A stretch of 53,175 bases of DNA from Bacilli bacterium. Its GTDB lineage: Bacteria; Bacillota_I; Bacilli_A; RF39; UBA660. Below are positions 9,939 to 36,388 of the stretch, piece by piece. Both the position numbers and the translations under genes were made by a program. The first letter of the stretch is position 1. Each line of letters opens with the position of its first letter. The notes below the pieces were generated by a model. It ran no database searches. It was not told the origin of the DNA and saw nothing but the letters and a program-made list of their open reading frames with translations. Location: contig JAFXZI010000013.1 in NCBI GenBank assembly GCA_017541325.1, forward strand, positions 1 to 53,175, written 5' to 3'.

Positions 9939-11225
9939 CTATTTATGAACAACCCATGCATCTGGTACAATTCTTGTTTTAGGTTGGAAATTACCATTCA
10001 TAGGATGAGTTATAATACTTCCATTAACGCTCATAGCACTAGAAGTACCTCCATCTAAGTTAGCAGCATTATAAGCACCATATCTTAATAAAATATTAGA
10101 TAAGTCTTTCATATCAGCTCCTAAAGATGATTTTTGTCTTCCATCTATTACTAGGAATAATACTATTCCATCTTTTCTTTGAGCAATAGCACTACGAGGA
10201 GCAACTCCCCAACCACCATTACCTTTTACATATGATGATTTACCATTAACTATTAAGAATGGTCCATATTGAATAGCATCTCTAATTCCTGATTTCATAG
10301 CTTCATCACAAGTCATAGTTCTAGATAAAACTAATTTATTTTCATTATTAAATCCAATTAGTCCTCCAACACTAAACTTATATCCTGCGTTATTAATTAT
10401 TTTTTTACCATTAGAAATAACGCATCCACGTGGAACTCCACCTTTACTATTGTAATCTGGATCATAGAATCCTGATGCATTCATTGAAATAACTGAACCA
10501 GAATCTTTTTCCATAGTATAAATCATTTGTCCTTTAGCAGTTTCTACATCACTACCAATATATTTAGAAGGTGCAATATGAACCTTTGATGGATCATATA
10601 TAACTGCCATTTTTCCTTTAAAGTTCTTTTCTTTAATATCTATAATTTTATATAGATCGTTTCCTTTATCTTTTTTAAGAATCTCTTCTTCATATTGATT
10701 TGCATATACAGAAATAGTAACATCTCCACCAGTTATTTCAACTAAGTCTGGATTTGTATCTTCTTTAACCTCAATAACATCATTATCATATCTAATTGCT
10801 TCAATAGTATCATCATCATAAATCCATGTAGCTAGATATTGATGTGATAAAGTAGTCATAGCACTTGTTACATACCAATCTCTAAATCCGTTATATGGTC
10901 CATAGAATAAGATCATTAATGTAGATGAGCAACCAATATATCCAATAAAGAATATTGTTAAAACTATCTTTTTCCATAATCTCATTTTTTTATAGTTTTC
11001 ATCTTTTTTATTATTTATTACTAGAACAATCCCAGCAAGTAATATAAATAATGATGCAACATCTAACCAAACCATAAGAATTGATAAAGGTAAGTTTATT
11101 AAGTTATTACTATGAAGTGAAATAATATAAAGATATGAAAATAAAGGTATTAGTAAGAATGATAATAATATTAATCTTACTCCTGTTTTTCTTCTATTTT
11201 GTTTTTTTCTATTTTCTCTTTTCAT
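9939..11225 (-). CDS. Membrane-anchored phosphodiester glycosidase (NAGPA) domain protein
   Basis: Three hydrophobic helices at about 16-36, 50-70 and 85-107 precede a large extracytoplasmic domain of about 300 residues. Its C-terminal half has hallmarks of the NAGPA/phosphodiester glycosidase family: APRSAIAQRKDGIVLFLVIDGR, AANLDGGTSSAM and the closing VPDAWVVHK. Relatives cleave GlcNAc-1-phosphodiester links or act in exopolysaccharide metabolism. The substrate here is unknown; a wall teichoic-type or capsule phosphodiester is a guess. AGAGGT precedes the start. The gene begins 8 bases after the coiled-coil membrane gene and appears to be last in a transcript that starts with the OLE-like RNA and OapA. 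Confidence 0.85.
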   Translation of the reverse strand: MKRENRKKQNRRKTGVRLILLSFLLIPLFSYLYIISLHSNNLINLPLSILMVWLDVASLFILLAGIVLVINNKKDENYKKMRLWKKIVLTIFFIGYIGCSSTLMILFYGPYNGFRDWYVTSAMTTLSHQYLATWIYDDDTIEAIRYDNDVIEVKEDTNPDLVEITGGDVTISVYANQYEEEILKKDKGNDLYKIIDIKEKNFKGKMAVIYDPSKVHIAPSKYIGSDVETAKGQMIYTMEKDSGSVISMNASGFYDPDYNSKGGVPRGCVISNGKKIINNAGYKFSVGGLIGFNNENKLVLSRTMTCDEAMKSGIRDAIQYGPFLIVNGKSSYVKGNGGWGVAPRSAIAQRKDGIVLFLVIDGRQKSSLGADMKDLSNILLRYGAYNAANLDGGTSSAMSVNGSIITHPMNGNFQPKTRIVPDAWVVHK

Positions 11226-11233
11226 AACTACCT

Positions 11234-11812
11234 CTATTCTGGATCAATTCCACTATAAATACCATCTTTATTAACATCTATCAAATCTTTATATTTAGAT
11301 TCAAATAATTCTAATTTTTTAAAACTACCAGAAGTATCTGCTTCTACCATTTTATTATATAATTCAATTTGAGAATTAAATTTCTTAACATCACTAACAA
11401 AGTAATTATTAGTTTGTTCATAATTAGTAATATAAGCTTCTTTTTTATTAGCTAAATCTTTATTTTTAAAATCTTTTTCAAGTAAACTATCTTTTAATTT
11501 TTCTCCAGTAGATACAATTTTGTCTAACTTTCCTTCATATGATTTAAAAATTTTTATAATATTTTCATATAAATCAGGTATATTTTCTAGATAATTTATC
11601 TCTTCTAAAGCTTTATATACTTTTGTTCTTTCATTAGAAAAATCTTCTAATGCAGTTCTGAATTCATCATAATCTTTCTCAATAGTATTCTTTAATTCTT
11701 GTTCTTCTTTCCTTTCATTTTCAAGACTTATAGTGTAATAAGTACAAAATATACCTAAACCTACAAATAAAATTGATATTAAAATTATAACTACTCTTTT
11801 CATTCTATTCAC
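11234..11812 (-). CDS. Membrane-anchored coiled-coil protein, unknown function
   Basis: The 192-aa protein has one N-terminal hydrophobic helix (about 7-25, VVIILISILFVGLGIF). A highly charged, helical extracytoplasmic part rich in Glu/Lys/Asn follows (NERKEEQELKNTIEKDYDEF), and it ends DVNKDGIYSGIDPE. No catalytic motif is recognised. The topology resembles a spacer or partner subunit on the outer face of the membrane. AAGGTG lies upstream of the ATG. It is 38 bases downstream of the OapA-like gene and 8 bases upstream of the glycosidase gene, so all three are likely co-transcribed. Confidence 0.8.
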   Translation of the reverse strand: MNRMKRVVIILISILFVGLGIFCTYYTISLENERKEEQELKNTIEKDYDEFRTALEDFSNERTKVYKALEEINYLENIPDLYENIIKIFKSYEGKLDKIVSTGEKLKDSLLEKDFKNKDLANKKEAYITNYEQTNNYFVSDVKKFNSQIELYNKMVEADTSGSFKKLELFESKYKDLIDVNKDGIYSGIDPE

Positions 11813-11850: not shown

Positions 11851-12396
11851 TTATCTACCCATAAAAGGATATAAAATTTTTGAAAATTTTTCTAATATTA
11901 CATTTGACTTATTAACAGCGTAACCTTTACCTAAAGCTTTTCCTCCTATAGTTAAAGCTGCGGTAAACGAAGTAATAACTACTGATATAAGTATTCCTTT
12001 TGCTTCTAATTTACTTATTAATTGAACTGATATAGCAGCAGCACAAGAACCACTTATTACTCCACAAATATCTCCAATTACATCACAACATAAACTAGAC
12101 ACTTTAGCTGAATTATTAATTAATTTTAAAGCTACTTTACTACTTTTAATTCCTCTTGCACTCATTGCATGAAAGACAGAACTATCGGCAGTAGTAGATG
12201 CAACACCAATCATATCAAATATTACTCCTAAAAGAATAAATACTATTATTAGAATAATACTTATAGATAAATGTGCATTAGGTATAATAGATTCTGAAAT
12301 ACTAGATAATAATACAGATATTAAAAAAGCTAGTACAGTTACTATAAATACCCATCTATAATCAAAAATTTTCTTTTTATTTTTCTTCTTTCTCAT
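11851..12396 (-). CDS. oapA: OapA-like OLE RNA-associated membrane protein
   Basis: The 181-aa protein starts with a strongly basic stretch (MRKKKNKKKIFDYR) and has four hydrophobic segments at about 15-32, 44-63, 100-125 and 135-152. The central block DMIGVASTTADSSVFHAM is followed by CCDVIGDICG with a DxxxD motif (D105, D109). OapA, the membrane partner of OLE RNA, is a protein of this size and topology with a conserved DxxxD motif, and is normally encoded immediately downstream of the RNA gene. The sequence also recalls the membrane part of CorB/CNNM-type magnesium proteins, consistent with the reported role of OLE in magnesium homeostasis. AAAGGAG lies before the ATG. Identification rests on family recall plus the structured RNA directly upstream. 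Confidence 0.75.
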   Translation of the reverse strand: MRKKKNKKKIFDYRWVFIVTVLAFLISVLLSSISESIIPNAHLSISIILIIVFILLGVIFDMIGVASTTADSSVFHAMSARGIKSSKVALKLINNSAKVSSLCCDVIGDICGVISGSCAAAISVQLISKLEAKGILISVVITSFTAALTIGGKALGKGYAVNKSNVILEKFSKILYPFMGR

Positions 12397-12419
12397 AAAA
12401 ATACTCCTTTTTTAAACAA

Positions 12420-12998
12420 TAAAAAAAATGGCTATTAACATGATTAACCTTATACCTTAGGTCAAGTTGGATTTCCCCCGTATCAACTATACCGTTACCA
12501 GTATAGCGATTCCTCTTTACTGATGCGAGTAGTAGGTCGCCCTATCTACGACTTGATTACCACTTAGAGCATACTATAAACTCATATTAAAAACACCCTA
12601 GGAGTTTTCCTCACCAATTCTATTATTATTAGACTTTTTTGCAATAATTGTTTCATGTAGCAATACAAAGTAATTACGTCGACTTAATTACTTGGCTGTC
12701 TCAATCCCCAATTATCACTCAAGTCAAGCTACACTATTCATCTTATAATCATAAATAGGTTAGTCCCAATTTGTAGACATTGCCATATAGGATCATCTAC
12801 ATCCACAAAGAAGGAGTCAGCGAGTAAATGGAACGGTTGCCGTATGCCTTTACGATCGTCCATAAACTCTTCAATCCAGCATTCACCCCAAGTTGGGCAC
12901 CCAAAGCAAACACCAGAAGCTTCAACTATGTGCTCTTTAACGAATTTTTAGGCTCGTCTTCATAATAATGTATTGACTAGGATAATGTGCCATTACAT
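12420..12998 (-). ncRNA. ole: OLE-type large structured RNA
   Basis: No gene-like open frame exists between 12397 and 13064. The minus strand has a promoter at 13005-13033, predicted to start at about 12998, and a T8 run with an imperfect hairpin near 12421-12448, giving about 580 nt. Clear helices on the + coordinates are: 12529-12549 (eight pairs, one bulge, capped on the RNA strand by a GCGA GNRA tetraloop), 12487-12506 (CTATAC/GTATAG), 12668-12676 with 12685-12693 (nine perfect pairs) enclosed by 12656-12661 with 12728-12733, and 12824-12853 (GTAAA/TTTAC around ACGG/CCGT). It is clearly less AT-rich than nearby spacers. Size, complexity and position just upstream of an OapA-like gene match OLE RNA (about 600 nt). 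RNase P, tmRNA and SRP RNA signatures are absent. ROOL RNA is similar in size but is not linked to OapA. Confidence 0.75.
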
Positions 12999-13004
12999 AA
13001 GGAG

Positions 13005-13033
13005 ATTATATCACAAACAACAAAAAAAATCAA
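13005..13033 (-). promoter_or_regulatory. Promoter of the OLE-like RNA
   Basis: On the minus strand TTGATT (13028-13033) and TATAAT (13005-13010) are separated by exactly 17 bases, predicting a start near 12998. The -35 box lies inside the stem of the ffh terminator. Confidence 0.8.
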
Positions 13034-13050
13034 GTTGAACACTTGATTTT
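13019..13050 (-). terminator. ffh intrinsic terminator
   Basis: AAATCAAGT/ACTTGATTT stem followed by eight T on the minus strand. It ends the ffh transcript just before the OLE-like RNA promoter and shares bases with its -35 box. Confidence 0.85.
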
Positions 13051-13064
13051 ATAATACATTTGTT

Positions 13065-14372
13065 TTAGAAAGGCATTTTGAAATTACCACTAGACATTTG
13101 TTTCATCATTTTCTTCATGTCTTCAAACTGATTTAACAAACGATTAACATCTTGAACACTTCTTCCACATCCTTTAGCTATTCTTTGTTTACGACTAGCT
13201 TTAATTATTTCAGGATGACGTCTTTCATAAGGAGTCATAGATAAAACTATTGCTTCAATTCGAGCCATATCTTTTGGATCAATATGAATTTGATCAAGTC
13301 CAGCTTTACGAGCTCCTGGAATAAGTTTCATTAAATTTTCAAGTGGTCCTAGTTTTCTAATTTGTTTCATTGAAGATAAAAAGTCTTCCAAATCAAATTT
13401 ACCATTTTGCATTCTTTTAGCAGTTTTCTCTGCTTCTTTTTCATCAATTGATTCTTGTGCTTTTTCAACAAGAGATATAATATCTCCCATACCAAGAATT
13501 CTACCAGCCATACGTTCTGGATCAAAGGAATCTAGTCCATCCATTTTTTCACTTATACCAATAAATTTAATTGGTACATTCGTTAAATGACGAACTGATA
13601 ATGCAACTCCTCCTCGAGTATCTCCATCTAACTTAGTTAAGATAACTCCAGTTAGAGGAAGAGAATTATTAAATCCTTCTATTACATTGATAGCATCTTG
13701 TCCCATCATAGAATCTATTACTAAAAGTATTTCTTGAGGAGATACTTCATCTTTAATCCTATTAAGTTCTTCCATAAGAACTTCATCTATATGTAGACGT
13801 CCTGCAGTATCTATAAGAACATAATCATAGTGATTTTCTTTAGCATAATTAATTGCATTACGAGCAATTTTAACTGGATCTGTTTTACCTTCATCATATA
13901 CTTCTATGTTAAGTTGCTTGCCAAGGTCTTTTAATTGATCTATTGCTGCTGGACGATATACATCACAAGCAACCAATAATGGTTTTTTAGCATGTTTTTT
14001 TCTTAAAAGCAAACCAAGTTTACCAATAGTAGTAGTTTTACCACTACCTTGAAGACCAACTAACATAAGTATTGCTGGATTTCCTTTAAGATTAAGATCT
14101 TCTTTTTCACCACCAAGAAGTTCAGTTAATTCATCTTTAACTATTTTTACAAATACTTCTCCTGGTTTTAAACTCTTTTGTACTTCTTCACCTAATGCTT
14201 TTTCTTTAACATCGTTAACAAATTCTTTAACAACTTTATAGTTAACATCAGCTTCTAGTAAAGCAAGTCTTATTTCTCTAGTCATTTCAGATATGTTCTC
14301 TTCAGTTATTTTTCCATATCCTTTAACTTTTTGTACTACATTTTGAAGTCTATCTCCTAAACTTTCAAACAT
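13065..14372 (-). CDS. ffh: Signal recognition particle protein Ffh
   Basis: Ffh is the SRP54 GTPase that binds signal peptides and SRP RNA and delivers ribosomes to FtsY. The 435-aa chain has the N-domain (1-90) and a G-domain with GLQGSGKT near 103, DTAGR near 190, TKLDGDTRGG and GISEKMDG. The Met-rich M-domain starts at about 325 and includes the RNA-binding SRKQRIAKGCGRS near 391, and the chain ends MKKMMKQMSSGNFKMPF. Length is normal. AGGAGAG precedes the ATG. Its SRP RNA is not within the window. It follows the HerA-like ATPase gene by about 26 bases, and its terminator abuts the OLE-like RNA promoter. Confidence 0.98.
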   Translation of the reverse strand: MFESLGDRLQNVVQKVKGYGKITEENISEMTREIRLALLEADVNYKVVKEFVNDVKEKALGEEVQKSLKPGEVFVKIVKDELTELLGGEKEDLNLKGNPAILMLVGLQGSGKTTTIGKLGLLLRKKHAKKPLLVACDVYRPAAIDQLKDLGKQLNIEVYDEGKTDPVKIARNAINYAKENHYDYVLIDTAGRLHIDEVLMEELNRIKDEVSPQEILLVIDSMMGQDAINVIEGFNNSLPLTGVILTKLDGDTRGGVALSVRHLTNVPIKFIGISEKMDGLDSFDPERMAGRILGMGDIISLVEKAQESIDEKEAEKTAKRMQNGKFDLEDFLSSMKQIRKLGPLENLMKLIPGARKAGLDQIHIDPKDMARIEAIVLSMTPYERRHPEIIKASRKQRIAKGCGRSVQDVNRLLNQFEDMKKMMKQMSSGNFKMPF

Positions 14373-14398: not shown

Positions 14399-16156
14399 TT
14401 ATTGTCCTCCACCCCAGAACTTAATAACATTACTGTTACTTGAAAGTGGAGATGGATTAGGCATCTCTAGTTTTACAATTACAGGAATCTTAAAAGCATT
14501 ACCAAATCCTAAACAAGTTCCTGATTGCAGTGTCTTTTGTTTTTCAATAACCTCTTCATTAATATTAGGTACCATTTGTCTAATGTACTCTGAATCAAGT
14601 GGGTTATTAATTTTAAATATTAAGAAATTTGAACATTGAGATATAACCGTATCAGAAAGTTCTACTGGACGTTGTGTAATTATTCCTAAAAGAACTCCAT
14701 ATTTACGTCCTTCTTTAGCAATACGTTCAAATATATTATATCCAATTAAGAATGTATCTTGGTCCTTCTTAACATAACGATGGGCCTCATCTATTAATAT
14801 ATGGAATGGAATAGATCCACGATTAGTTATTGTCTTTGAATAATCAAAAATAATACGTGAGAATATCTTTGTAATAACAGCCGCTACTGAGTCATCTATA
14901 TCATCCATATTTATATTAATAATTTGATATTTTTTACCTTGACTAATAAGTAGACTAGCTAGATATTGTTCAACTGTAATATATTGAGGATATTCAAATA
15001 ACTTTCCATAAGGACCAGTAATAAGTGAATGAAGTCTTACTTTAATTGTTACTGCATCAGCATAAGTTTGAACATTTTTATACCATCCTTCAGAAATAAG
15101 AGTAAATTTAAGTGCTCTTTCTAAGTCTTGTAATGTATAACGTACATTAGCTTGTGGTTCATAATCTTCAAACTCTGGTCTAATAAAACTTGATGCGTAT
15201 TCAGTAAATAAGATTCCTTCTGTAAATGTACCAGTCTTATCTATATTAAAACATTCTCTAAATTTTCTAGTATATCCAACTCCTTGGATAACTGCTTCCA
15301 TATTAAAATGTTCAGTTTGACATTCAGCAACTATTCCAAAGATATCATTTTTCTTTTCAGCTGGCGCTGCATCACTAAATAATACACTTATAATTGCACT
15401 TGCGATTAAGTGATCTTTAAATTGTGTTGCACGTTCTCCTGACTCTGCAAATACCCTAGCAAGTTTTAACATTCTCTCTATCATTGGTATTTGAGTATGA
15501 GAATTACATGCAAGAAGTAATGCTATATCATTACTATTTAATAACCAAATAGGTATTCTTAATTTTTCTGCTCCTGGTTCATGTTCATTACTACTAAAAA
15601 TACGATAATTATAATTAGGATTAATTTGATTAATATCTTTAAATGCTTGAGTATACTCACCAGAAATATCAAACAAAATAAAGTTTGCACGATATGGTTT
15701 AGCAGTATCATTTAAAAATACATTTTGTATAAGTCTTGCAACTCCACAAGATTTACCTGCACCAGAATTACCAAATATTGCAAAATGGTTACTAAAGAAT
15801 TCATTTACATTTAAATAAACTGGATGTCCATTATATGAAGGATTTTGTCCTAAATATAAAGATTCATTATCTTTCTTACCTAAAACAAGAGGTATCTCTT
15901 CTTTATTAATCTCTCTTATAGTTGCATCCATCAAAGGTTTTCTAATTAAACCAATACGTAATTTTTCTCCTTCAAATTCACCTAATAGTTTAATTTTAAT
16001 CTTACCATTATCTATTTGGGTAATTTCTCCTAATACCTTTTTTTCAGAGTCTTCAATTATTACATGCACACTAAGCAAATTTGTTTTAATTTCTACTCCT
16101 GGTTTTAAAGCTACATAGATATAAGCTTCATCCATATAAGTAATTTTCTCAAACAT
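14399..16156 (-). CDS. HerA-like ATPase (HAS-barrel/DUF87 family)
   Basis: The 585-aa protein starts with a beta-rich N-terminal barrel (about 1-100). A RecA-like ASCE ATPase follows, with Walker A FGNSGAGKS near 126-134 and Walker B HILIDEAHRY near 450. A late motif, IITQRPVELSDTVISQCSNF, fits sensor/arginine-finger segments of HerA/FtsK-type hexameric pumps. HerA proteins move DNA with the NurA nuclease in archaea, and bacterial relatives serve many roles, including phage defence. No nuclease gene or transmembrane helix is seen. It is inserted between ylxM and ffh with short gaps, so it is expressed with the SRP genes; its role there is unknown. GGGG precedes the ATG. Confidence 0.85.
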   Translation of the reverse strand: MFEKITYMDEAYIYVALKPGVEIKTNLLSVHVIIEDSEKKVLGEITQIDNGKIKIKLLGEFEGEKLRIGLIRKPLMDATIREINKEEIPLVLGKKDNESLYLGQNPSYNGHPVYLNVNEFFSNHFAIFGNSGAGKSCGVARLIQNVFLNDTAKPYRANFILFDISGEYTQAFKDINQINPNYNYRIFSSNEHEPGAEKLRIPIWLLNSNDIALLLACNSHTQIPMIERMLKLARVFAESGERATQFKDHLIASAIISVLFSDAAPAEKKNDIFGIVAECQTEHFNMEAVIQGVGYTRKFRECFNIDKTGTFTEGILFTEYASSFIRPEFEDYEPQANVRYTLQDLERALKFTLISEGWYKNVQTYADAVTIKVRLHSLITGPYGKLFEYPQYITVEQYLASLLISQGKKYQIININMDDIDDSVAAVITKIFSRIIFDYSKTITNRGSIPFHILIDEAHRYVKKDQDTFLIGYNIFERIAKEGRKYGVLLGIITQRPVELSDTVISQCSNFLIFKINNPLDSEYIRQMVPNINEEVIEKQKTLQSGTCLGFGNAFKIPVIVKLEMPNPSPLSSNSNVIKFWGGGQ

Positions 16157-16175: not shown

Positions 16176-16469
16176 TTATAATATATCTTCTATTTTTTCA
16201 TAAGTAGTTTGGTCTACTTTATTTTTTAATAGTTTTAGAACTTCTTCTCTTTTTCTTTTAAGACCTATTACTTTTTCATAAAAATCCAGTCTTTCTTCTA
16301 CTATTTTTATTTGATTAAATATTGCATTACGACTAACTCCATAGTTATCTGCAATCTCACCAAGAGATAAATCGTTTAAATAATAGTCATCGAAGTATTC
16401 TTGTTGTTTATCAGTAAATAAATCTCTATAGTAAACATATACTTCACTTAATAATACTTTCTTTTCCAT
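16176..16469 (-). CDS. ylxM: YlxM-family SRP-associated DNA-binding protein (UPF0122)
   Basis: The 97-aa protein carries a sigma-70 region 4-like helix-turn-helix, LSLGEIADNYGVSRNAIFNQI, after YFDDYYLNDL. This is typical of YlxM, a small protein encoded with ffh and ftsY and reported to influence SRP GTPase activity in Streptococcus. It starts one base after the ftsY stop codon, with AAGGAT upstream overlapping the ftsY end, which suggests translational coupling. The usual ylxM-ffh adjacency is interrupted here by the HerA-like gene. Confidence 0.92.
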   Translation of the reverse strand: MEKKVLLSEVYVYYRDLFTDKQQEYFDDYYLNDLSLGEIADNYGVSRNAIFNQIKIVEERLDFYEKVIGLKRKREEVLKLLKNKVDQTTYEKIEDIL

Positions 16470-16470
16470 A

Positions 16471-17619
16471 TTACATCATATCCTTAAATAATCCATATAT
16501 ATATTTTTCTATATCAAATACTTGTAAATCTTCTTTTCTTTCACCAAGTCCAATATATTTAACAGGAATTCCTACTTGTTCTTTTATTGCAAGAACTATT
16601 CCACCTTTAGCAGTACCATCTAATTTAGTAAGTACTATTCCTGTTATATTTGTAATCTCTTTAAAAGCGACTGCTTGACTAATCCCATTTTGTCCAGTAG
16701 TTGCATCTATTACCAAAAGAACTTCGTGTGGTGCATCAGGAATAAGTTTACCAATAACACGATTAATTTTTTCAAGTTCATTCATCAAGTTAACTTTGTT
16801 TTGTAGTCTTCCTGCAGTATCGATCATTACTACATCAGTATCATCTTCTAATGCTTCAGTTAGTCCGTCATAAATAACACTAGATGGATCAGCTCCTTCT
16901 TCTTTTCCAAAGAAGGATGCCCCAACTCGATTAGCCCATTCTTCAAGTTGTCGAGTTGCTCCTGCTCTAAAAGTATCTCCTGCAACTAATTTTACTTTTT
17001 TACCTTCATCTATCATCTTATTAGCAAGTTTCGCTATGGTAGTAGTTTTACCTACTCCATTAACTCCTACAAATAAGATAACAGTAGGTTTTTTCTCACT
17101 AAAATTAATCTTATTAACTATAACTGAATCATTAACATATATAATGAATAATTCATCTACGATAATCTCTTTTAAATATTCAGTAGACTCTATATTTTCA
17201 TGTTTAACTCTTTTACGAAGTCTATCCATAAAAGATATAACAGTATCTACTCCAATATCAGCCATAATTAGAATTTCTTCTAATTCATCAAAATACTCTT
17301 CAGTAATTTTATGATATTTATTTGTAAGATTTGCAAGTTTTGATACAAATCCTTCTCTACTTTTAGTTAATCCTTTTTCATAAACTTTAACTTCTTCTTG
17401 TAGTTTTTTCTCTTCTTCTAATTCTTTTTCTTCGTCTTTTTTAACTTTTTCTTTATGTTTCTTATATTCTTTTTTTAGACTAGGATCAATTTCTTTAGAT
17501 GTTTCTTCTACTATCTCTTCAAATCTTTCTTCTTCACCTTCATCCAAAACCGCAACCACATTTGATTCATCGGATTTGTCTTTTGCAAACATGTTTTTGA
17601 TTTTATTAAATAAACCCAT
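16471..17619 (-). CDS. ftsY: Signal recognition particle receptor FtsY
   Basis: FtsY is the membrane-associated GTPase receptor for SRP. Residues 1-90 are an acidic/basic A-region starting MGLFNKIKNMF, a likely amphipathic membrane-targeting helix. The N-domain follows, then the G-domain with GVNGVGKT near 184, DTFRAGATRQLEEW, DTAGRLQNK, TKLDGTAKGG and GLGERKEDL. The frame is open to an ATG at 17631, but GGTGAT sits 4 bases before the ATG at 17619 and a TATAAT lies at 17636-17641, so 17619 is the likely start (382 aa). It heads the ftsY-ylxM-HerA-ffh operon. Confidence 0.96.
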   Translation of the reverse strand: MGLFNKIKNMFAKDKSDESNVVAVLDEGEEERFEEIVEETSKEIDPSLKKEYKKHKEKVKKDEEKELEEEKKLQEEVKVYEKGLTKSREGFVSKLANLTNKYHKITEEYFDELEEILIMADIGVDTVISFMDRLRKRVKHENIESTEYLKEIIVDELFIIYVNDSVIVNKINFSEKKPTVILFVGVNGVGKTTTIAKLANKMIDEGKKVKLVAGDTFRAGATRQLEEWANRVGASFFGKEEGADPSSVIYDGLTEALEDDTDVVMIDTAGRLQNKVNLMNELEKINRVIGKLIPDAPHEVLLVIDATTGQNGISQAVAFKEITNITGIVLTKLDGTAKGGIVLAIKEQVGIPVKYIGLGERKEDLQVFDIEKYIYGLFKDMM

Positions 17620-17635
17620 ATTAATCACCATTTAA

Positions 17636-18318: not shown

Positions 18319-20031
18319 TTAAACTCCATATATTTTACCTACTTTTTCTTTTATACTAGGATCAACTGTCCCTATTCCATTTAAAATTGTTTCTATTGCT
18401 TTAGAATAATTACCTTTATAGAATAATTTTTCAGCATTAGATAACTCTCTATCTATTTTAGCATCTCCTGATCTATATTTGTTACAATATATAATCAAAT
18501 TTTCACATAAATTAGCATCCCTAATCATTTCATTAGTAGCATTATAAACTTTTAGTACTAGGTCCCTTGCAGTATCAACTCTAGTATTAAGTGTTGCAAT
18601 AGCGATAGGTTTATTTTCTAATTCTTTAATAATTTCTGCTATTGCTTCGTTAGCTTCATTTAATTGAACGAAGTATGTATCACTTACAATAGGTAGTTTA
18701 TAATCTCTCATATGAAGTTTACTCTTTGATAACATTTCTTGAATATCATTTAATTGTTCACGAGCACGCACTTCATCATTATACATATTACCAAGAGATT
18801 TTAATGATACATCTAAATCATCTTCTATATTCTTAAGATTTTCTGTATATTCAGTTAAATCATGATTAATTTTAGAATATGGAGTCTTACTACTAGATAG
18901 TTTTCGAATAGATTTATTATATTCTTTCTTTAAAGCTTGTAATCTAGAATTAACATCATCTATAACTTTAATATCATTATCTGTTAAATCATACATATTC
19001 TTAATATCATCTATTTGCTTATATATGTCTTTAACAACATTAACTGTCTTATTAAGTTTATTACTAAAGTTACCTATTTCATCTTCATATTCTTTACGAG
19101 CAATTTTTTCTTTTTCAAATTCACTAAATAAAGAATCTAAGTACTCAAGCATAGTTTTTAATTCAAACATACAATCTACTAAATTAAGTACTTTTATTCT
19201 ATCGTAGATTTCATTTACTTTCTTCAAAGATTCATCTACATTATATTCAATATTTAAATAATCTAATGGATACTCTTCTTTTTTCATACTTTCATATGTT
19301 TCTTTAATTTGTTCAATTCTTTTAGGTATTACTTTAGTAGCTAAAAGAATAAGATCCGGGCTCTCATCTATAACAATTGACATATGATCTACCATAGTAT
19401 CTACTGCTTTTACTATATGCATTACTTCAGAATAATCATTTACTTCCATCAAATCTTCAAAATCTTGAAAACGTTTCTCTATATTTTCAAATTGAAGTTC
19501 AATTATTCCTTCAATACCAGTATAATTTTCTTTATTAGTTTCAAATACTTGGTTAAGTTCACGATATTTTGCTTTAAGTTTAGTAATAATATCACGGTAC
19601 TTTTCTTCACTACCATTAATATCTTCTATTTCTTTTAAGATATGTCCTACTTTATTTTTGGTACGATATAAGAATAATTCTGCTTTAGAATATTCTGTCG
19701 CAAAACTTTTATAATCTTTTTTATCTATTAAAATATCTAAATCTACTATATTATCACTCATTTTAGATATATCTTCATTTTTAACACGATCAAAGACAAG
19801 GGACCATTCTTTATATTTTTCTTCCATTTTCTCGTTTTTTATAATTGGTTCTACTTTAGCAAGTTCTGCAACGATTGGTGCAGTTTCCAATGAATTTTTC
19901 TCTTTATCAAGATAAGAAACACAATCACGATATTTCTTTACTTTTCTTGTTTTTACAAATAAAAATAGAAGCACTAATACTACGATAGCCACTATTATAA
20001 ATGTAATAATTTTTAAAACCGCAATGTTCAT
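18319..20031 (-). CDS. ezrA: Septation ring formation regulator EzrA
   Basis: The 570-aa protein has one N-terminal transmembrane helix (about 7-25, IITFIIVAIVVLVLLFLFV). A long cytoplasmic alpha-helical region follows, with spectrin-like repeats rich in Glu/Lys/Asn. Length and architecture match EzrA, the FtsZ-ring regulator of Firmicutes that prevents extra Z-rings and links division to wall synthesis. The conserved family ending GNYSKAIETILNGIGTVDP is present. It is divergent from rpsD, as in Bacillus, which strengthens the call. AGAGGTG precedes the ATG. The prepilin-like gene follows with virtually no gap. Confidence 0.9.
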   Translation of the reverse strand: MNIAVLKIITFIIVAIVVLVLLFLFVKTRKVKKYRDCVSYLDKEKNSLETAPIVAELAKVEPIIKNEKMEEKYKEWSLVFDRVKNEDISKMSDNIVDLDILIDKKDYKSFATEYSKAELFLYRTKNKVGHILKEIEDINGSEEKYRDIITKLKAKYRELNQVFETNKENYTGIEGIIELQFENIEKRFQDFEDLMEVNDYSEVMHIVKAVDTMVDHMSIVIDESPDLILLATKVIPKRIEQIKETYESMKKEEYPLDYLNIEYNVDESLKKVNEIYDRIKVLNLVDCMFELKTMLEYLDSLFSEFEKEKIARKEYEDEIGNFSNKLNKTVNVVKDIYKQIDDIKNMYDLTDNDIKVIDDVNSRLQALKKEYNKSIRKLSSSKTPYSKINHDLTEYTENLKNIEDDLDVSLKSLGNMYNDEVRAREQLNDIQEMLSKSKLHMRDYKLPIVSDTYFVQLNEANEAIAEIIKELENKPIAIATLNTRVDTARDLVLKVYNATNEMIRDANLCENLIIYCNKYRSGDAKIDRELSNAEKLFYKGNYSKAIETILNGIGTVDPSIKEKVGKIYGV

Positions 20032-24075: not shown

Positions 24076-25365
24076 ATGAAGTTTGTAACAGATATAGATA
24101 AGAAGAAATATGACACTTTTGTAAAAAAACATGAAAAAGCTCACTTTTTACAAAGTTATGCTTGGGGAGAGTTCTCATATAAAGCAAGAAATCTAATACC
24201 TCATTATGTAGGTATAGTTGATGATAAAGATAAATTATTATGTGTTACTTTACTATTACAAAAAAAATTACCACTAGGTTATTCATATTTTTATGCACCA
24301 AGAGGATATGTAATAGATTTTTGGGATAATAATCTATTAAAGAAATTTACTGAAGAAATAGTTAAATATACTAAAAAAAGAAAAGGTATATTTATTAAGA
24401 TAGATCCAGATATTATTTGGAAAGAATACAATTATAAAGACGAAGAAGTAGAATTAAAAAAGAATCCTAAAGAAGTATTTAATGCTTTAAAAGAATTAGG
24501 TTATAAGCATTTAGGTTTTACCAAAAACTTTGAAACTATGCAACCAAGATACAGTTTTAGAATAGATTTAAATCAATCTATGGAAGAAATAGAATCTAAA
24601 TTTAATAAAACCAATCAACAAAGAATTAGAAAAGGTAGAGAATTAGGTGCGATTATTCGTAAGGGAGATATTAATGATATAGATGAATTTAATCATTTAA
24701 TGGAACTTACTGAGTCAAGAAAAGATTTTCTATCTCATGATTTAGAATATTATCGTACTTTATATGATATATATACTAGAGATAATGATATTGCCCTATA
24801 TATGGGAAGTATAAATTGTGAAAAAGTAATTGATAATTATAAATCTGAAAAGGAAAATATCTTACCTGAAATAGAAAGACTAAAAAATACAGAAAATTTA
24901 AGTAAAAGTAATAAGACTAAATTAAAAGAATTAGAACAAAGAAATGAAAAATTAAATGAATATATAAATGAATATGAAAAAGCTAAAGATGAATTTGGAA
25001 GTACTATTACACTAGCCAGTCAATTTGTAATAATATACGCTGATAAAGCATGGGTTTTATATGCAGGAAATCATAATGTTCTTACTGATTCTTGTGTAAA
25101 TTACACTACTTATTATGAACAAATGAAATACTGTAAGGAAAACGGTGTTAAGATGTATGATCAATTTGGTACGATTGGGGATATAAATAGTAATAATCCT
25201 AGATATGGTCTTCATATATTTAAAAAGAAATTTGGTGGAGACTATGTTGAATTTATGGGAGAATTTGATTTAGTTACAAACAAGTTTATGTATTTTATAT
25301 TTACTAAACTAGTACCAATATATCGTAAGTTAGTAAGATCTATTACAAAATTAAAAAGGAGATAA
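24076..25365 (+). CDS. FemABX-family peptidoglycan bridge aminoacyltransferase (copy 1)
   Basis: FemABX enzymes transfer amino acids from aminoacyl-tRNA to the stem peptide of lipid II to build the interpeptide bridge. The 429-aa protein has two GNAT-like subdomains (FLQSYAWGEFSYKARN, YFYAPRGYVIDFW; KMYDQFGTIGDINSNNPRYG, FKKKFGGDYVEFMGEFD). An inserted antiparallel coiled coil lies at about 250-308, as in staphylococcal FemA and FemX. Length is typical. It is the first of two tandem copies on this strand, separated by one base from the next. The transferred amino acid cannot be read from sequence. Confidence 0.93.
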   Translation: MKFVTDIDKKKYDTFVKKHEKAHFLQSYAWGEFSYKARNLIPHYVGIVDDKDKLLCVTLLLQKKLPLGYSYFYAPRGYVIDFWDNNLLKKFTEEIVKYTKKRKGIFIKIDPDIIWKEYNYKDEEVELKKNPKEVFNALKELGYKHLGFTKNFETMQPRYSFRIDLNQSMEEIESKFNKTNQQRIRKGRELGAIIRKGDINDIDEFNHLMELTESRKDFLSHDLEYYRTLYDIYTRDNDIALYMGSINCEKVIDNYKSEKENILPEIERLKNTENLSKSNKTKLKELEQRNEKLNEYINEYEKAKDEFGSTITLASQFVIIYADKAWVLYAGNHNVLTDSCVNYTTYYEQMKYCKENGVKMYDQFGTIGDINSNNPRYGLHIFKKKFGGDYVEFMGEFDLVTNKFMYFIFTKLVPIYRKLVRSITKLKRR

Positions 25366-25366
25366 T

Positions 25367-26611
25367 ATGGAAATAACTACTTTAACTAGTAAAGAATTTG
25401 AATCATTTGCTAAAAAAAATAAATATGTAACTTTTTATCAAAAAGAATCTTGGGGAAAGTTGAAAGAAAAGAATGGATGGAAATACGAACTTCTTGGTAT
25501 GAAAGATAAAGACAAAGTAGTTGCCGCTACTCTTCTTTTAGAAAAAGATATGCCTCTAGGTTTAAAAATGTTTTATGCACCACGTGGATTCCTAATAGAT
25601 TTTCTAGACACTAAACTATTAGATAATTTTGTTAAAGCTATTAAGAAATATTTAAAAGATAAAGGTGCTGCTTTTTTGAAAATTGATCCATATGTTGTTC
25701 ATCTAGAAAGAGATGTAAATGGTGATGTTGTTGAAGGTGGTACTGATAATACTCCTTTAGTTGATCATCTAAAAGAACTTGGTTTTATTCATCATGGATT
25801 TAATATAGATTCAAGTAAAGAATTACAACCTCGTTGGATGTTTACTTTAGATTTAAAAGATAGATCTGTAGATGACTTAATGATGAATATGATTAAACCT
25901 ACTAGAAAAAATGTTAAACAAACTATAAAATTAGGTCTAACTATGGAGTTCATTGGTGAAGAAGGTCTTACTGAGTTTAAAAAGATTACTGATCATACTG
26001 GAGATAGACGTGGTTTTATTGATAGACCATTATCATATTATCAAGAAATGTTTAAATATTTAGGTGATGATATTAAAATACTTTTATGTTACTTAGAACC
26101 AGATAAATCAATAGGATTATTCCAAAAAGAAATAGATACTATTAATGGTTTTTCTGATATAACTGATAAAAGGAAAGAAGAAATTGCATCATACGAAAAG
26201 AAAATTAATGAATTAAAAGAAGTAAAAGAAAAACATGGAGATAAAATACCACTAGCTGGATCTATGTTTATATCATGTGAAAAAGAACTACTAAATTTAT
26301 TTGGTGGTGGATATGATGAGTTTATGAGATACGATGCCATGTATGGAATTCAATGGGAAGCAATTAAATATGCTAAAGAAAATGGATATGAATTATATAA
26401 CTTCTATGGTATAGAAGGTAATTTTAAAAAAGAGAATAATCCTATGTATGGAGTATATGAATTCAAAAAAGGATTCGGTGGTAAAGTAGTTGAACTAATT
26501 GGAGAATTTGATCTACCTATTAGTAAATCTAAATATAACTTATATAAAGCAGCTTTTGGTACTTATAAAAAAGCTAAAAATTTGAAAAGTAAAATTAGGA
26601 GTAAAAAATAA
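25367..26611 (+). CDS. FemABX-family peptidoglycan bridge aminoacyltransferase (copy 2)
   Basis: This 414-aa enzyme has the same layout as its neighbour: MFYAPRGFLIDFLD in the first subdomain, LVDHLKELGFIHHGF and KPTRKNVKQTIKLG. A charged coiled coil lies at about 245-292, and it ends FYGIEGNFKKENNPMYGVYEF then FKKGFGGKVVELIGEFDLP. The clear divergence from copy 1 suggests it adds a different bridge residue, as FemX, FemA and FemB do in Staphylococcus (inference). AAGGAG precedes the ATG, and its stop overlaps the next start by one base. Confidence 0.93.
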   Translation: MEITTLTSKEFESFAKKNKYVTFYQKESWGKLKEKNGWKYELLGMKDKDKVVAATLLLEKDMPLGLKMFYAPRGFLIDFLDTKLLDNFVKAIKKYLKDKGAAFLKIDPYVVHLERDVNGDVVEGGTDNTPLVDHLKELGFIHHGFNIDSSKELQPRWMFTLDLKDRSVDDLMMNMIKPTRKNVKQTIKLGLTMEFIGEEGLTEFKKITDHTGDRRGFIDRPLSYYQEMFKYLGDDIKILLCYLEPDKSIGLFQKEIDTINGFSDITDKRKEEIASYEKKINELKEVKEKHGDKIPLAGSMFISCEKELLNLFGGGYDEFMRYDAMYGIQWEAIKYAKENGYELYNFYGIEGNFKKENNPMYGVYEFKKGFGGKVVELIGEFDLPISKSKYNLYKAAFGTYKKAKNLKSKIRSKK

Positions 26612-26976
26612 TGGAAGTAAATTTAAAAACAATGCCTAAAGATGTTTTATTTCAATATCGTGAAGATGGATATGTTTGGAAAAGAGACCGTTTTGAAACA
26701 AGAGATGGAAACTATGCAAATGATACACCAACTACATATACAGAAATATTTAAAACTACAAATTCTGGAGATATAAAATGTGTTTGGAGTGGTAGTCTTA
26801 CTGATAATCCTGGATTATATGGAGAAAATGGATTAGATTCAGAGAATATGTTTCATATATTTAGTTTTGATCAAGACTGTGGTGCTAAATTTAATCAAAC
26901 AATGCCACTTACAGTAGCACCTCAAGAACTACAAGATCAAGCACTTGCTCTAGAACCAGAAGTTAGAAGAAAATAA
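26611..26976 (+). CDS. Small conserved-looking protein coupled to FemABX gene, unknown function
   Basis: The 121-aa protein has no signal peptide or transmembrane helix. It starts MEVNLKTMPKDVLFQYREDG and has many aromatic and Thr/Asn residues with two cysteines (IKCVWSG, DQDCGAKF), then ends in a short helix. Composition suggests a compact beta-rich cytoplasmic domain. It starts within the stop of FemABX copy 2 (TAATG), so its translation is coupled to that enzyme. No family is recognised. Confidence 0.75.
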   Translation: MEVNLKTMPKDVLFQYREDGYVWKRDRFETRDGNYANDTPTTYTEIFKTTNSGDIKCVWSGSLTDNPGLYGENGLDSENMFHIFSFDQDCGAKFNQTMPLTVAPQELQDQALALEPEVRRK

Positions 26977-27003
26977 AAAAGATACTTAATGTATCTTTTT
27001 ATT
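26976..27003. terminator. Bidirectional terminator between converging transcripts
   Basis: AAAAGATAC/GTATCTTTT stem with a 5-base loop and T runs in both directions. It ends the FemABX pair on the plus strand and the small membrane gene on the minus strand. Confidence 0.8.
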
Positions 27004-27322
27004 TTTTTCTTTTTTTAGTAGTTGTTGTTTTATGAACAACTTTTTTTGCTTCTGCTTTTCTTTCTTCTTCAGCCATTCCTATAGAGAAGAATGCAAATCC
27101 TAATCCTCCAAATGCTGCTACTAATACGTATATTGGAATTAAGATTGCCCATACTAAGAAGATATTAGCATCATGGTTAACTAGTCCTTGAACTGTACCA
27201 ATAAATTCTTCATTAGTAATCAATAATAAGAATAGACCACTAAAAATACATAAAGCAATGAAAATAAATATAGCATCCCATATAAAAGCAGTAAGTAATT
27301 TTTTTCTTAACCTCTTATTCAT
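26999..27322 (-). CDS. Small two-helix membrane protein, unknown function
   Basis: The 107-aa protein has two hydrophobic helices at about 12-34 and 51-82, the second with a Gly-rich AAFGGLGFAFFSIGMA, and a strongly basic Lys/Thr tail. A basic start (MNKRLRKK) suggests both ends are cytoplasmic. No family is recognised. GAGGAAG precedes the ATG. Confidence 0.7.
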   Translation of the reverse strand: MNKRLRKKLLTAFIWDAIFIFIALCIFSGLFLLLITNEEFIGTVQGLVNHDANIFLVWAILIPIYVLVAAFGGLGFAFFSIGMAEEERKAEAKKVVHKTTTTKKRKK

Positions 27323-27367
27323 TCTCTTCCTCCTATTATTATTTTATAATACTTTTTTATAAATAAG

Positions 27368-27402
27368 CAAATAAAAAATAATACTATTTACAAGTATTAT
27401 TT
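27368..27402 (-). terminator. Terminator of FemABX copy 3
   Basis: AATAATACT/AGTATTATT stem with a T-rich tail on the minus strand overlapping the end of the gene. Confidence 0.75.
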
Positions 27403-28659
27403 TCTTTTTATAATATTTTTTACTTTCTTACCAAGATTATAAATATTATAAACAAATCCAGTTTTAATTTCGAATTGTCCAATTAATTCTACTACATTTC
27501 CATTAAAACCTTTTTTAATTTCATACATCCCATAATATTTAGAATCTTTATTAAAGTCCCCTGTTATACCATAAAAGTCTACCCATTCAAATCCTTCTTT
27601 ATAAGCATCTTTTATATGAGCATCATACATAGCATATTTAGGAGTAAATCTTCCATATTCTTTTAACATACCACTACTAAGTGTTAAATACTCTTTTCCA
27701 GAACGAAGAGATAAAAGTGCTCCTATATCTTTTCCGTTAGGATTTTCTTTTTTAAACTTTTTAGCAACTTCTAATTCTTCTTTATATTTCTCTATTTGTT
27801 TAAGATTACTTTCTTTTTGATTAGTTAACTTAGAACCAACTATACTTGTCTTCATCTTTTCTTCAATTACTTCTTTTTCTTTTTCTGCTTCATGAAGTAA
27901 TTCTTCAGTATCTTTTAAATATACATCTGGATCTAGATAAGCTATATAAATAGTCATTAAATCTTTCATGTGTTTATACATTTTTTTATAATATTCTAAA
28001 CTACGAGACTGAAAATCTTTTCTTTTACTAGTTACATCAAATATTTCAGTCATAGAATCTAAATCTTCTATTTTACCAACTCTTACTTTAAGACCTTTTT
28101 TATAACTAGCATCTATATTCTTTCTTGTACTTTTAGAAAACTTTTGCTTTTTAGTTTCATAATCTTCATCTAATTTTAGACGATATTCCCATCTAACTTG
28201 ATAGGTTTCAGTATATAAATTAAATCCAAAATACTTATATCCTAATTTCTTAAGATTTTCCATCGTTAAATCATCTTTATCTTTATCTTCGTTTAAGATT
28301 TCTCCTTCACTAGAACGAAAACGATAGACTACATTAGGATCAATTGTAATTCTAAATCCTTTATGTTTTTTTACATATTTAATAAGTTCATCACTAAAAT
28401 ATTTTAATAAATCAAAATCATGATAATCAATTAAATATCCTCTTGGTGCATAAAAAGTTTTTTGTCCAAGAATTGATTTTTCTTCCAGTATTAAAGTAGC
28501 AGCGATTACTTTTTTATTTTTCTTAACTCCTACTAAATGAGGAATACTACCTAATTCGCGTTTTAAATTAGCTAATTCAATTGATTGCATGAAAGAGGTT
28601 TGTTCATAATCTTTTGTAAAATCTCTAAATTCTTTTTCAGTTAACGTTGTAAATTCCAT
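27397..28659 (-). CDS. FemABX-family peptidoglycan bridge aminoacyltransferase (copy 3)
   Basis: The third FemABX paralogue (420 aa) lies on the opposite strand. It shows TFYAPRGYLIDYHD, KKQKFSKSTRKNIDASYKKG and a long Glu/Lys coiled coil at about 235-305 (HEAEKEKEVIEEKMKTSIVG). The C-terminal block is VDFYGITGDFNKDSKYYG, then KKGFNGNVVELIGQFEI. It is co-transcribed with a lipid flippase-like gene whose stop overlaps its start by one base. This fits a membrane-linked wall precursor pathway. Confidence 0.93.
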   Translation of the reverse strand: MEFTTLTEKEFRDFTKDYEQTSFMQSIELANLKRELGSIPHLVGVKKNKKVIAATLILEEKSILGQKTFYAPRGYLIDYHDFDLLKYFSDELIKYVKKHKGFRITIDPNVVYRFRSSEGEILNEDKDKDDLTMENLKKLGYKYFGFNLYTETYQVRWEYRLKLDEDYETKKQKFSKSTRKNIDASYKKGLKVRVGKIEDLDSMTEIFDVTSKRKDFQSRSLEYYKKMYKHMKDLMTIYIAYLDPDVYLKDTEELLHEAEKEKEVIEEKMKTSIVGSKLTNQKESNLKQIEKYKEELEVAKKFKKENPNGKDIGALLSLRSGKEYLTLSSGMLKEYGRFTPKYAMYDAHIKDAYKEGFEWVDFYGITGDFNKDSKYYGMYEIKKGFNGNVVELIGQFEIKTGFVYNIYNLGKKVKNIIKRK

Positions 28660-33248: not shown

Positions 33249-35666
33249 TTATTTAACTACTATATTAACTATTCTTCCTTTGATAACTATTACCTTAACT
33301 ATTTCTTTTCCATCGATGTGCTTTTGAACATTTTCTTCATCCATTGCTTTAGTTTTTATATCTTCTTCAGAATCATTTACATTAACCTTTATAGTAGCAC
33401 GTACTTTACCATTAACTTGTACCGCTATTTCTTTTTCTTCTTCTACTATTTTAGATTCATCATATACTGGCCAAGTACTTTCACAGAACTTATCACCTAA
33501 TTTATAATATTCATTTAATTCTTCAGTAATATGAGGAATAATAGGATTTAATAAATGTAATAATACTCTATAATCATCTTTAGTAATAGATTCATATTTA
33601 TCATATTCATTTAACATAATCATGAGAGTTGATACAGCAGTATTAAATTTTAAATTAGTTAAATCTGATTCTATCTTTTTAATTGTTTTATTAACAAGAA
33701 CTTCATCAGTAAATCCTGATTTATCATTTAACTTATCTCCAATTTTACATACTCTTTCGATATATCTTCTACATCCTTTAAGAGAATCTACACTCCATGC
33801 AGCATCTTGAGTATAGTCTCCAATAAACATTTCATAAAGTCTTAATGTATCTGCACCATACTCATTTACTATATCATCTGGATTTATTACATTTCCTTTA
33901 GATTTAGACATTTTTTCTCCATTTGATCCTAAAATCATACCATGACTTACTCTAGTCCAAATCATTTCTTTATTTGGAACAAGGCCAAAATTATATAACA
34001 TTTGTACCCAGAATCTTGCATATAATAAGTGTCTTGCAGTATGTTCCATTCCACCATTATACCAATCTACTTTGTTCCAATATTTCATAGCGTCCATACT
34101 ACAAAATTCTTTATCATTATGAGCATCCATAAATCTTAAGAAGTACCAGCTTGATCCAGCCCATTGAGGCATTGTATCAGTTTCACGTTTAGCATATGCA
34201 CCACATTTTGGACATTTACAATTTACCCATTCAGTTATTTTTGCTAAAGGACTTTCTCCATCATCAGTAGGTTCATATTCTGCTACATCAGGTAAAACTA
34301 ATGGTAAGTCTTCTTCATTCATTGGTACCCATCCACATTTAGGACAATTTATCATTGGAATTGGTTCTCCCCAGAATCTTTGTCTTGAGAAAATCCAATC
34401 TCTCATCTTATAATTATTAACTCTTCTTGCTATTCCTTGTTTTTCTAACTTTTCTGTAATTGCTTCTTTTGCTTCTTCAACAGTAAGACCAGTAAATTCT
34501 TCAGAGTTAATTAACTTACATCCTTTACCTAAATAATCTTGTTTTTCAAAAGCACAAGTTTCAGTTTCTCTTCCATCGATTACTTGAATCATATCCAAGT
34601 TATGTGCAACAGCATATTCAAAGTCTCTTTGGTCATGTGATGGTACTGCCATAACCGCACCAGTTCCATAACTTCCCAATACGAAATCTCCTAAATATAC
34701 TGGAACTTCTTTACCATTAACTGGATTAATTGCCTTAATACCTTTAATTTCACATCCAGTTTTTCCTTTATTTAACTCTGTACGATCCATATCAGATTTC
34801 TTTTGAGTTTCTTTAATATATTCTTCTACTTCATCTTTATTCTCTACTCTAGGCATTAATTCTTTTATCAATTTACCATCTGGTGCGATAACAAAGAAAG
34901 TAATACCATAAACTGTTTCTATACATGTAGTAAATACAGAGAATTTTCCTCCTCCTATAATTTCTACATCAAGTTCTACTCCACTAGATTTACCAATCCA
35001 GTTAATTTGACCTAATTTAACTCTTTCAGCAAAATTTGTATCATCAAGTCCCTTAAGTAAATCTTCAGCATAGTCACTCATTCTTAACATCCATTGTGAT
35101 TTTTCTTTTTGAATTACTTCTGTACCACATCTTTCACATACTCCACCAGCTGAATCCTCGTTAGATAACACCATCTTACAAGTAGGACACCAGTTTACTG
35201 GTATTGTATCTTTATAAGCCATTCCATGTTTATAAAATTGTAGGAATTGCCATTGAGTCCATTTATAATAATCAGGATCTGTTGTAGAAAATTCTCTACT
35301 CCAATCAAATGAAAAACCTAATTTTTTCATTTGTCCTTTAAAAGTTGCTATATTTTCTTTAACAGCATCTCTTGGATGAATATGATTCTTTATAGCATAT
35401 TGTTCTGCAGGTGCTCCAAATGCATCAAATCCCATAGGAAATAATACATTTTTACCTTTCATTCTTAACATTCTAGACATTGCATCATGAGCAGTATAAC
35501 TTCTTACATGACCTACATGTAATCCAGATCCACTTGGATATGGAAATTCTACTAATACATAATATGGATCTTTTTCTTTATCTCCATTTATAGCTTTAAA
35601 TGTTTCATGTTCATCCCAATAGTTTTGCCATTTATTTTCTATTTTTGCTACGTTTTCTAATTTCAT
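33249..35666 (-). CDS. leuS: Leucyl-tRNA synthetase
   Basis: LeuRS charges tRNA-Leu. The 805-aa class I enzyme has the HIGH motif as HVGH (50-53), the zinc-type CPTCKMVLSNE...CERCG, and the CP1 editing segment YGTGAVMAVPSHDQRDFEYA. The KMSKS loop GEKMSKSKGN is near 585, and it ends in the usual C-terminal domain (VQVNGKVRATIKV). The start overlaps the upstream 180-aa gene by 35 bases, and no strong ribosome site precedes it, so translation is probably coupled. Expression is under the leucine-type T-box upstream. Confidence 0.98.
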   Translation of the reverse strand: MKLENVAKIENKWQNYWDEHETFKAINGDKEKDPYYVLVEFPYPSGSGLHVGHVRSYTAHDAMSRMLRMKGKNVLFPMGFDAFGAPAEQYAIKNHIHPRDAVKENIATFKGQMKKLGFSFDWSREFSTTDPDYYKWTQWQFLQFYKHGMAYKDTIPVNWCPTCKMVLSNEDSAGGVCERCGTEVIQKEKSQWMLRMSDYAEDLLKGLDDTNFAERVKLGQINWIGKSSGVELDVEIIGGGKFSVFTTCIETVYGITFFVIAPDGKLIKELMPRVENKDEVEEYIKETQKKSDMDRTELNKGKTGCEIKGIKAINPVNGKEVPVYLGDFVLGSYGTGAVMAVPSHDQRDFEYAVAHNLDMIQVIDGRETETCAFEKQDYLGKGCKLINSEEFTGLTVEEAKEAITEKLEKQGIARRVNNYKMRDWIFSRQRFWGEPIPMINCPKCGWVPMNEEDLPLVLPDVAEYEPTDDGESPLAKITEWVNCKCPKCGAYAKRETDTMPQWAGSSWYFLRFMDAHNDKEFCSMDAMKYWNKVDWYNGGMEHTARHLLYARFWVQMLYNFGLVPNKEMIWTRVSHGMILGSNGEKMSKSKGNVINPDDIVNEYGADTLRLYEMFIGDYTQDAAWSVDSLKGCRRYIERVCKIGDKLNDKSGFTDEVLVNKTIKKIESDLTNLKFNTAVSTLMIMLNEYDKYESITKDDYRVLLHLLNPIIPHITEELNEYYKLGDKFCESTWPVYDESKIVEEEKEIAVQVNGKVRATIKVNVNDSEEDIKTKAMDEENVQKHIDGKEIVKVIVIKGRIVNIVVK

Positions 35667-36188: not shown

Positions 36189-36382
36189 ATAAAAAAGATG
36201 ATACCTATAAGGACGATTTCTCGCGGTACCACCTTAATTCATAGAATAAATCTATCTCAAATACTTAACGCGTATAACGATTTACTTAATAATTAGACAA
36301 GTTCATAGTTTTTAACTACTAGTTTTCACCAAACACTAGTTCTCTACAAGTATATTACTATTACTACTTCTAATCAGCAATT
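36189..36382 (-). ncRNA. T-box leader RNA controlling the leuS operon
   Basis: T-box leaders sense uncharged tRNA and allow readthrough into synthetase genes. On the minus strand the T-box core GGTGGTACCGC lies at 36223-36233. It is followed by a terminator whose stem, GGTGGTACC pairing with GGTATCATC, ends in six T (36189-36233). Stem I begins near 36375 with a GAAGTAGTAA-type element and closes with ATTAG/CTAAT pairing. Leucine codons (CTA, CTT) lie on its 3' side near 36296-36310 as specifier candidates. Leucine specificity is inferred mainly from leuS downstream. Confidence 0.92.
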
Positions 36383-36388
36383 ACATGT

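Follow-up and report, generated by a model that had tools for sequence, protein, structure and literature searches.

To our knowledge, what OLE RNA does biochemically has been an open question for almost 20 years. The RNA is described as part of a ribonucleoprotein (RNP) at the membrane, with stress phenotypes and dimer contacts (PMC12265935, PMC9723947, PMC12054373). Described contacts include an A-A contact of the A-rich P4 loop and kissing contacts of the P5.1 and P6.1 loops (PMC12265935); the L9.3 loop alternates among GGCC, GAUC, and AGCU (Kretsch et al. 2025, PMC12286853), and P3 is modelled as a transmembrane helix (PMC12265935, PMC9723947, PMC12054373). OLE is present in RF39 and TANB77 gut bacteria, in which OapB and OapC are missing (Fernando and Breaker 2024, PMC11332333). 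The ole-oapA pairing in RF39 gut Bacilli has therefore been known since 2024, and the first-pass annotation of this DNA is outdated in remarking that OLE has seldom been treated in host-associated lineages. The same study found variant 2 OLE, which lacks P7 and P8, to be common in RF39, sorted OLE RNAs by bit score (full-length, ≥390; variant 1, 310 to 390; variant 2, 235 to 310), and reported a Bacillota-wide anticorrelation between OLE and MpfA (PMC11332333).

The window analysed here, a stretch of 53,175 nucleotides (nt), belongs to a genome of 1.25 Mb in 15 contigs. A scan of the window with 4,227 Rfam families at gathering thresholds returned only OLE and an unrelated T-box leader, and the ROOL model had no match at its gathering threshold anywhere in the window. 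OLE (RF01071) matched from model position 1 to 616 of 616 with 347.4 bits (E 1.7e-98; gathering threshold, 50), and this is the sole OLE copy in the genome. The first-pass annotation had read a gene-free gap of 668 bases as an OLE-type locus, with ROOL as the competing class; the gap was confirmed at 12397-13064, between ffh and a 181-amino-acid (aa) open reading frame (ORF), and the OLE reading stands. Only the proposed RNA end at 12998 has to be moved, since the OLE match reaches 13009, 11 bases further. The main features of the locus are as follows.

12412-13009, minus strand: ole, the OLE RNA gene, ~580 to 598 nt, with full-length-type architecture (Rfam RF01071)
13005-13033, minus strand: candidate sigma-A promoter of ole, TTGATT-17-TATAAT, with 10 of 12 consensus matches and a TG before the -10 element
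12421-12428, minus strand: T8 run at the ole 3' end (sequence reading)
11851-12396, minus strand: oapA, a 181-aa membrane protein with the DxxxD motif D105-VIG-D109 (PF01595 CNNM, 31 bits)
13065-14372, minus strand: ffh, the SRP GTPase, directly upstream of ole (PF00448, PF02978, PF02881)

The TTGATT-17-TATAAT site was the best promoter candidate of the ole region, and the 17-base spacing noted in the first pass is present, but promoter-like sites of that quality were no commoner than in shuffled sequence (11 found against 14.2 expected), and its -35 element overlaps a hairpin-plus-T stretch after ffh. Similarly, the T run proposed as the RNA end lies at 12428-12421, but terminator calling found no canonical terminator there. 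As read from the sequence, the promoter and terminator signals of ole are weak.

The structural elements of the RNA were located by the Rfam alignment, except for P3/P3.1, which lies outside the Rfam structure and was drawn by duplex folding of the window and its relatives.

12614-12976, minus strand: P3/P3.1 long-range helix, 12976-12962 with 12629-12614, ~12 to 13 pairs (duplex folding)
12939-12958, minus strand: P4, whose A-rich loop, CCUAAAAA, is known as the A-A dimer contact
12845-12898, minus strand: P5.1 loop GCCCA (12898-12894) and P6.1 loop GGCA (12848-12845), known kissing partners
12765-12815, minus strand: P7 (helix 5, 85% paired in relatives)
12734-12758, minus strand: P8, shortened to ~7 pairs (also sequence reading)
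12632-12725, minus strand: P9 arm including P9.3, with the self-complementary loop GUCGAC at 12683-12678 (also loop survey)
12487-12506, minus strand: P13 hairpin capped by a GUAA tetraloop; in Halalkalibacterium halodurans (H. halodurans), it belongs to the OapB site

Two stems singled out in the first pass fall on known elements: P13 accounts for the GNRA-capped stem (12506-12499 with 12494-12487, GUAA cap), and P9.3 for the perfect nine-pair stem (12693-12685 with 12676-12668). Of the 147 consensus pairs, the window RNA forms 133 as standard pairs. When the Rfam structure was carried over from the window to a set of 36 OLE sequences (window and relatives), 103 of the 147 pairs were changed on both sides, against 76.5 after shuffling and no more than 61 once the partners were slid, and the covariation score was 0.413 (shuffled, 0.177; slid, at most 0.151). 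Across these pairs and sequences, 84.1% of cells were paired, with controls far lower; the P4 helix was paired in 90.7%, and the P5.1 and P6.1 loops were near-invariant. A P3/P3.1-like helix is kept in most relatives despite differing sequence, with an unbroken 15-pair duplex in locus L002. The GGUAAC loop of P13 is conserved in almost all of the 36 sequences even though the family lacks OapB, suggesting that this loop probably has another role. In five loci (L008, L014, L095, L117, and L133), the P9 arm is only ~54 nt long and lacks the P9.3 kissing hairpin; L008 combines the short P9 arm with retained P7 and P8.

By score, the window RNA (347 bits) would fall in the variant 1 band of PMC11332333, whose model is not that of Rfam, so that the scores are only roughly comparable; by architecture, it is not variant 2, since P7 and P8 are both present. 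In a survey of the order, OLE was found in 94 of 146 genomes: 59 of these RNAs exceed 565 nt, 5 measure 521 to 565 nt, 28 have the variant 2 length (480 to 519 nt), and the remaining two are 378 and 381 nt long.

The P9 centre was folded in 82 long P9 arms, and the central tetranucleotide of L9.3 was palindromic in 75 of them, although a few assignments, ACGU in L073 among them, are probably misfolds. The centre is UCGA in the window and in genome G006, GCGC in other members of the window's genus, and GGCC, AGCU, or GUAC in other relatives, giving at least four alternative palindromes in all. Of the 30 loops that differ from GGCC, 23 carry another palindrome (P of ~7e-14 if the loops are independent, which related sequences are not fully). 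A loop that stays mostly self-complementary while its sequence varies supports RNA dimers in this lineage and extends the published evidence for OLE acting as a dimer.

The 181-aa protein encoded downstream on the same strand, which the first pass had described as a DxxxD membrane protein resembling OapA, is OapA as judged by its motif, its fold, and its strict co-occurrence with OLE. D105 and D109 do not vary in either of two alignments (of 20 sequences, and of 37 including Oscillospiraceae); the DxxxD motif is absent from ordinary CNNM domains. An AlphaFold2 model (pLDDT 91.6) matched the CNNM protein MtCorB (PDB 7M1T) with a Z score of 14.6 and an rmsd of 2.2 over 129 residues, against 8.2 for the best unrelated chain; residues 42 to 178 superpose on the CNNM membrane domain, and the N-terminal helix (residues 13 to 37) lies outside the match. 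A profile search of PDB sequences with OapA gave no match, so that Pfam and fold are the basis of the CNNM link. Named OapA relatives came from metagenome-assembled genomes (MAGs), many of gut origin, under titles of uncultured Bacilli, Mollicutes, Tenericutes, or Erysipelotrichaceae. Taken with the small genome and the published account of OLE in gut Bacilli (PMC11332333), these titles suggest that the window organism belongs to GTDB order RF39. No OapA relative was found among viral contigs, and carriage of OLE and OapA by viruses was rejected. Taken together, the RNA at 12412-13009 and its neighbour are almost certainly a genuine ole-oapA pair.

OLE and OapA are found together in 24 of the 36 genomes of the window's family and are both missing from the other 12; none has one alone. 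OLE lies on the same locus in 77 of 80 named OapA loci. In genome G011, OLE is on contig C3 and OapA on C12, and the two are ~1.2 kb apart in G013 and ~4 kb apart in L114. L018 is also among the loci in which OLE and oapA are unlinked or 1 to 4 kb apart.

The nearly universal ole-oapA order, together with an oapA start only 16 bases beyond the OLE match in the window, would be expected if OLE were mainly a cis-acting leader that controls oapA expression and not the RNA of a separate RNP. We consider this unlikely, because the RNA is still conserved where the two genes are unlinked or distant, which argues against a pure cis-leader role, because the covarying L9.3 palindromes point to RNA-RNA dimers, and because the OLE family is known as an RNP (PMC12265935).

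The partner set of this RNP was surveyed in the same 36 family genomes, and the OapB and OapC of the four-part particle of H. halodurans were found in none of them. For OapC, no protein matched PF01248 (L7Ae family) in any of the 36, in comparison to 21 of 23 other Bacilli with such a protein. For OapB, Pfam KOW misses the protein, and we therefore used as a query an OapB from a clostridial genome, confirmed against PDB 7K9B (E 1.8e-11); it had no match in any of the 36 genomes and, as a positive control, recovered OapB in 6 of 8 OLE-bearing Clostridia. The two KOW proteins of the window genome are L24 (105-aa frame) and probably NusG (179-aa frame). In the clostridial genome (L159), a gene is present between map and infA; in the window genome (L158), only 4 bases separate map, which ends at 6512, from infA, which starts at 6517, leaving no room for that gene. 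The search for OapB and OapC elsewhere in the genome that the first pass had proposed was thus clearly negative. We also considered whether a Lys-rich N-terminal tail of OapA replaces OapB and OapC; this was rejected, since clostridial OapAs have similar tails once GTG and TTG starts are allowed, and the OapAs of variant 2 and mini-OLE loci have only short Lys-rich tails.

No CorC_HlyC domain was found in the window genome or the family, and no MpfA-type transporter was found in the window genome. Proteins with a strong CNNM match (335 to 431 aa) are present in 4 of the 24 OLE genomes and in 2 of the 12 OLE-less genomes (the latter include G009, G014, G015, G022, and G028), so that the Bacillota-wide anticorrelation is not seen at family scale. 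Since 10 of the 12 OLE-less genomes are without any strong CNNM transporter, the loss of OLE is not compensated by MpfA there, and substitution by MpfA is unsupported within the family. With OapB and OapC absent, no MpfA type found, and bS21 present in the window genome, the particle appears, from gene content, to be cut down to OLE and OapA, and bS21 would be at its disposal. OapA would then be the only known dedicated partner of OLE left in the window organism.

Two relatives in the window's family, from different genera, carry a much shorter RNA, termed mini-OLE here: 378 nt in G087 (L172:1169-1546) and 381 nt in G093 (L173:1163-1543). Both span the RF01071 model from position 1 to 616 except for P5 to P8, which are missing, and score 134 to 139 bits with it; the cut-off in PMC11332333 is 235 bits on its own model. 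The loss of P5 to P8 takes with it the k-turn for OapC, the site for bS21, and the kissing loops of P5.1 and P6.1; P3, the A-rich P4 loop, a short P9, and the whole 3' domain are retained. The P9 loop is ACUGAUCAG or ACUGAUCAU, palindromic (GAUC), and both RNAs can form a P3-like duplex. Within 5 bases after each mini-OLE lies an oapA of 172 aa with DxxxD intact, and upstream lies a promoter-like TTGACA-17-TAAAAT or TAATAT, as read by eye from the sequence. From P10 to the 3' end, G087 and G093 agree at 191 of 202 aligned bases, with the differences mostly at the tail end, whereas 32 of 58 fourfold-degenerate sites in oapA differ. Although the evidence comes from two MAGs only, the shared deletion, the different neighbouring genes, and the strong constraint argue against an assembly error. 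OLE variation from J6/7 to P8 has been described (PMC12265935); loss of P5 and P6 is not known to have been, and a mini-OLE of ~380 nt is apparently undescribed in the literature.

The mini-OLEs are likely functional despite the loss of P5, P6, P7, and P8. If so, they would be a natural deletion analysis: OLE could do without most of the domain 1 resolved by cryo-EM, and its conserved work would lie in domain 2 and P3/P4 with OapA. Mini-OLE is the most interesting lead of this work and may show the essential part of the RNA. The relatives form a graded natural series of ~600 nt, ~490 nt (variant 2-like), and ~380 nt (mini-OLE), which points to a minimal OLE RNA for H. halodurans genetics.

A further short OLE sequence, L025 (G033:C3:70010-70394), is a second copy in G033 with a degenerate 5' end; it runs off the contig end and was rejected as a mini-OLE. 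It may be a decaying paralogue or contamination (G033 is listed with 4% contamination).

The missing partners bear on a further explanation, namely, that the window RNA is a decaying remnant in a reduced genome, which has inherited its shape but no longer works without OapB and OapC. Each of these proteins is required in H. halodurans, the window RNA scores below most full-length relatives, and the pair has been lost in 12 of 36 family genomes. We nevertheless find decay very unlikely: the standard pairing of the window RNA and the strong covariation in relatives are not those of a remnant, OapA is intact, RNA and OapA are lost together and never singly, and even the 3' domain of the mini-OLEs is nearly invariant while their oapA fourfold sites have changed. 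That the RNA belongs to a different large class (ROOL, GOLLD, or raiA type) of similar size and high structure, of which ROOL also occurs in gut-associated organisms, has a negligible chance given the Rfam result for the window and a neighbour that is OapA and not a phage or raiA gene.

The genes around the pair are as follows.

9939-11225, minus strand: membrane-anchored phosphodiester glycosidase with a NAGPA domain (PF09992, E 6.8e-41)
11234-11812, minus strand: 192-aa protein with an N-terminal membrane helix and a coiled-coil-like body, after oapA (tblastn)
14399-16156, minus strand: HerA-like ATPase (sequence reading)
16176-16469, minus strand: ylxM
16471-17631, minus strand: ftsY
36206-36386, minus strand: T-box leader (Rfam)

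The 192-aa protein has no significant match to a Pfam family. It follows oapA in the window's genus and some other genera, in 13 of 105 ole/oapA loci compared by tblastn (some of which are the same genome in two collections), and the glycosidase follows it in 11 of these loci; a cell-envelope link of this segment (9939-11812) is possible. A functional link to SRP was rejected, since ffh abuts ole only in the window genome and G006 and lies within ~7 kb in three named loci. Elsewhere in the window, the T-box leader is followed by a 180-aa ORF with no Pfam match and then leuS (33249-35666). Three FemX/FemAB-type peptidoglycan cross-bridge genes lie close together at 24076-28659, and ezrA is at 18319-20031, which points to a walled cell despite the reduced genome.

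The best overall explanation, and in our judgment a probable one, is a working ole-oapA particle, in which a dimeric RNA would be held by OapA and may tune ion transport. The ole RNA would be made as a discrete transcript of ~580 nt, and two copies would dimerise through contacts at three places: the A-rich loops of P4, the loops of P5.1 and P6.1, and the P9.3 palindrome. OapA, probably a divalent-cation (Mg2+) transporter related to CNNM and MpfA, may anchor this dimer to the membrane, where P3 would lie within or alongside the bilayer, and the particle may tune OapA in a membrane or Mg2+ stress response. For this last step, the tuning of divalent-ion flow through OapA, we hold the chances to be about even. 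In a reduced genome the particle would work without OapB and OapC, which would make OLE and OapA, possibly with bS21, its functional core.

Compared with known systems, the window OapA shares the CNNM membrane domain fold with the MtCorB/CNNM/CorC/MpfA Mg2+ transporters but consists of the CNNM-like part only, with the extra N-terminal helix and without CBS or CorC_HlyC domains. By description it resembles the H. halodurans OapA (~180 aa, DxxxD, weak CNNM homology, and membrane helices), and the gene directly follows ole in both. Variant 2 OLE of RF39 is alike in its setting, a reduced genome of gut Bacilli without OapB and OapC, but lacks P7 and P8, both of which the window RNA has, P8 in shortened form. 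In comparison to the OLE of H. halodurans and Clostridium, the window differs in its shorter P8, an L9.3 loop with the palindrome GUCGAC, the ffh gene immediately upstream, and a genome without OapB and OapC; it shares with them the whole consensus from the 5' end to the 3' tail, including the A-rich P4 loop, the P3 helix, the P5.1/P6.1 and P9.3 dimer loops, the P13 GNRA hairpin, and the adjacent oapA. The value of the window pair lies in this reduced partner set and in the series of relatives that leads from it to mini-OLE.
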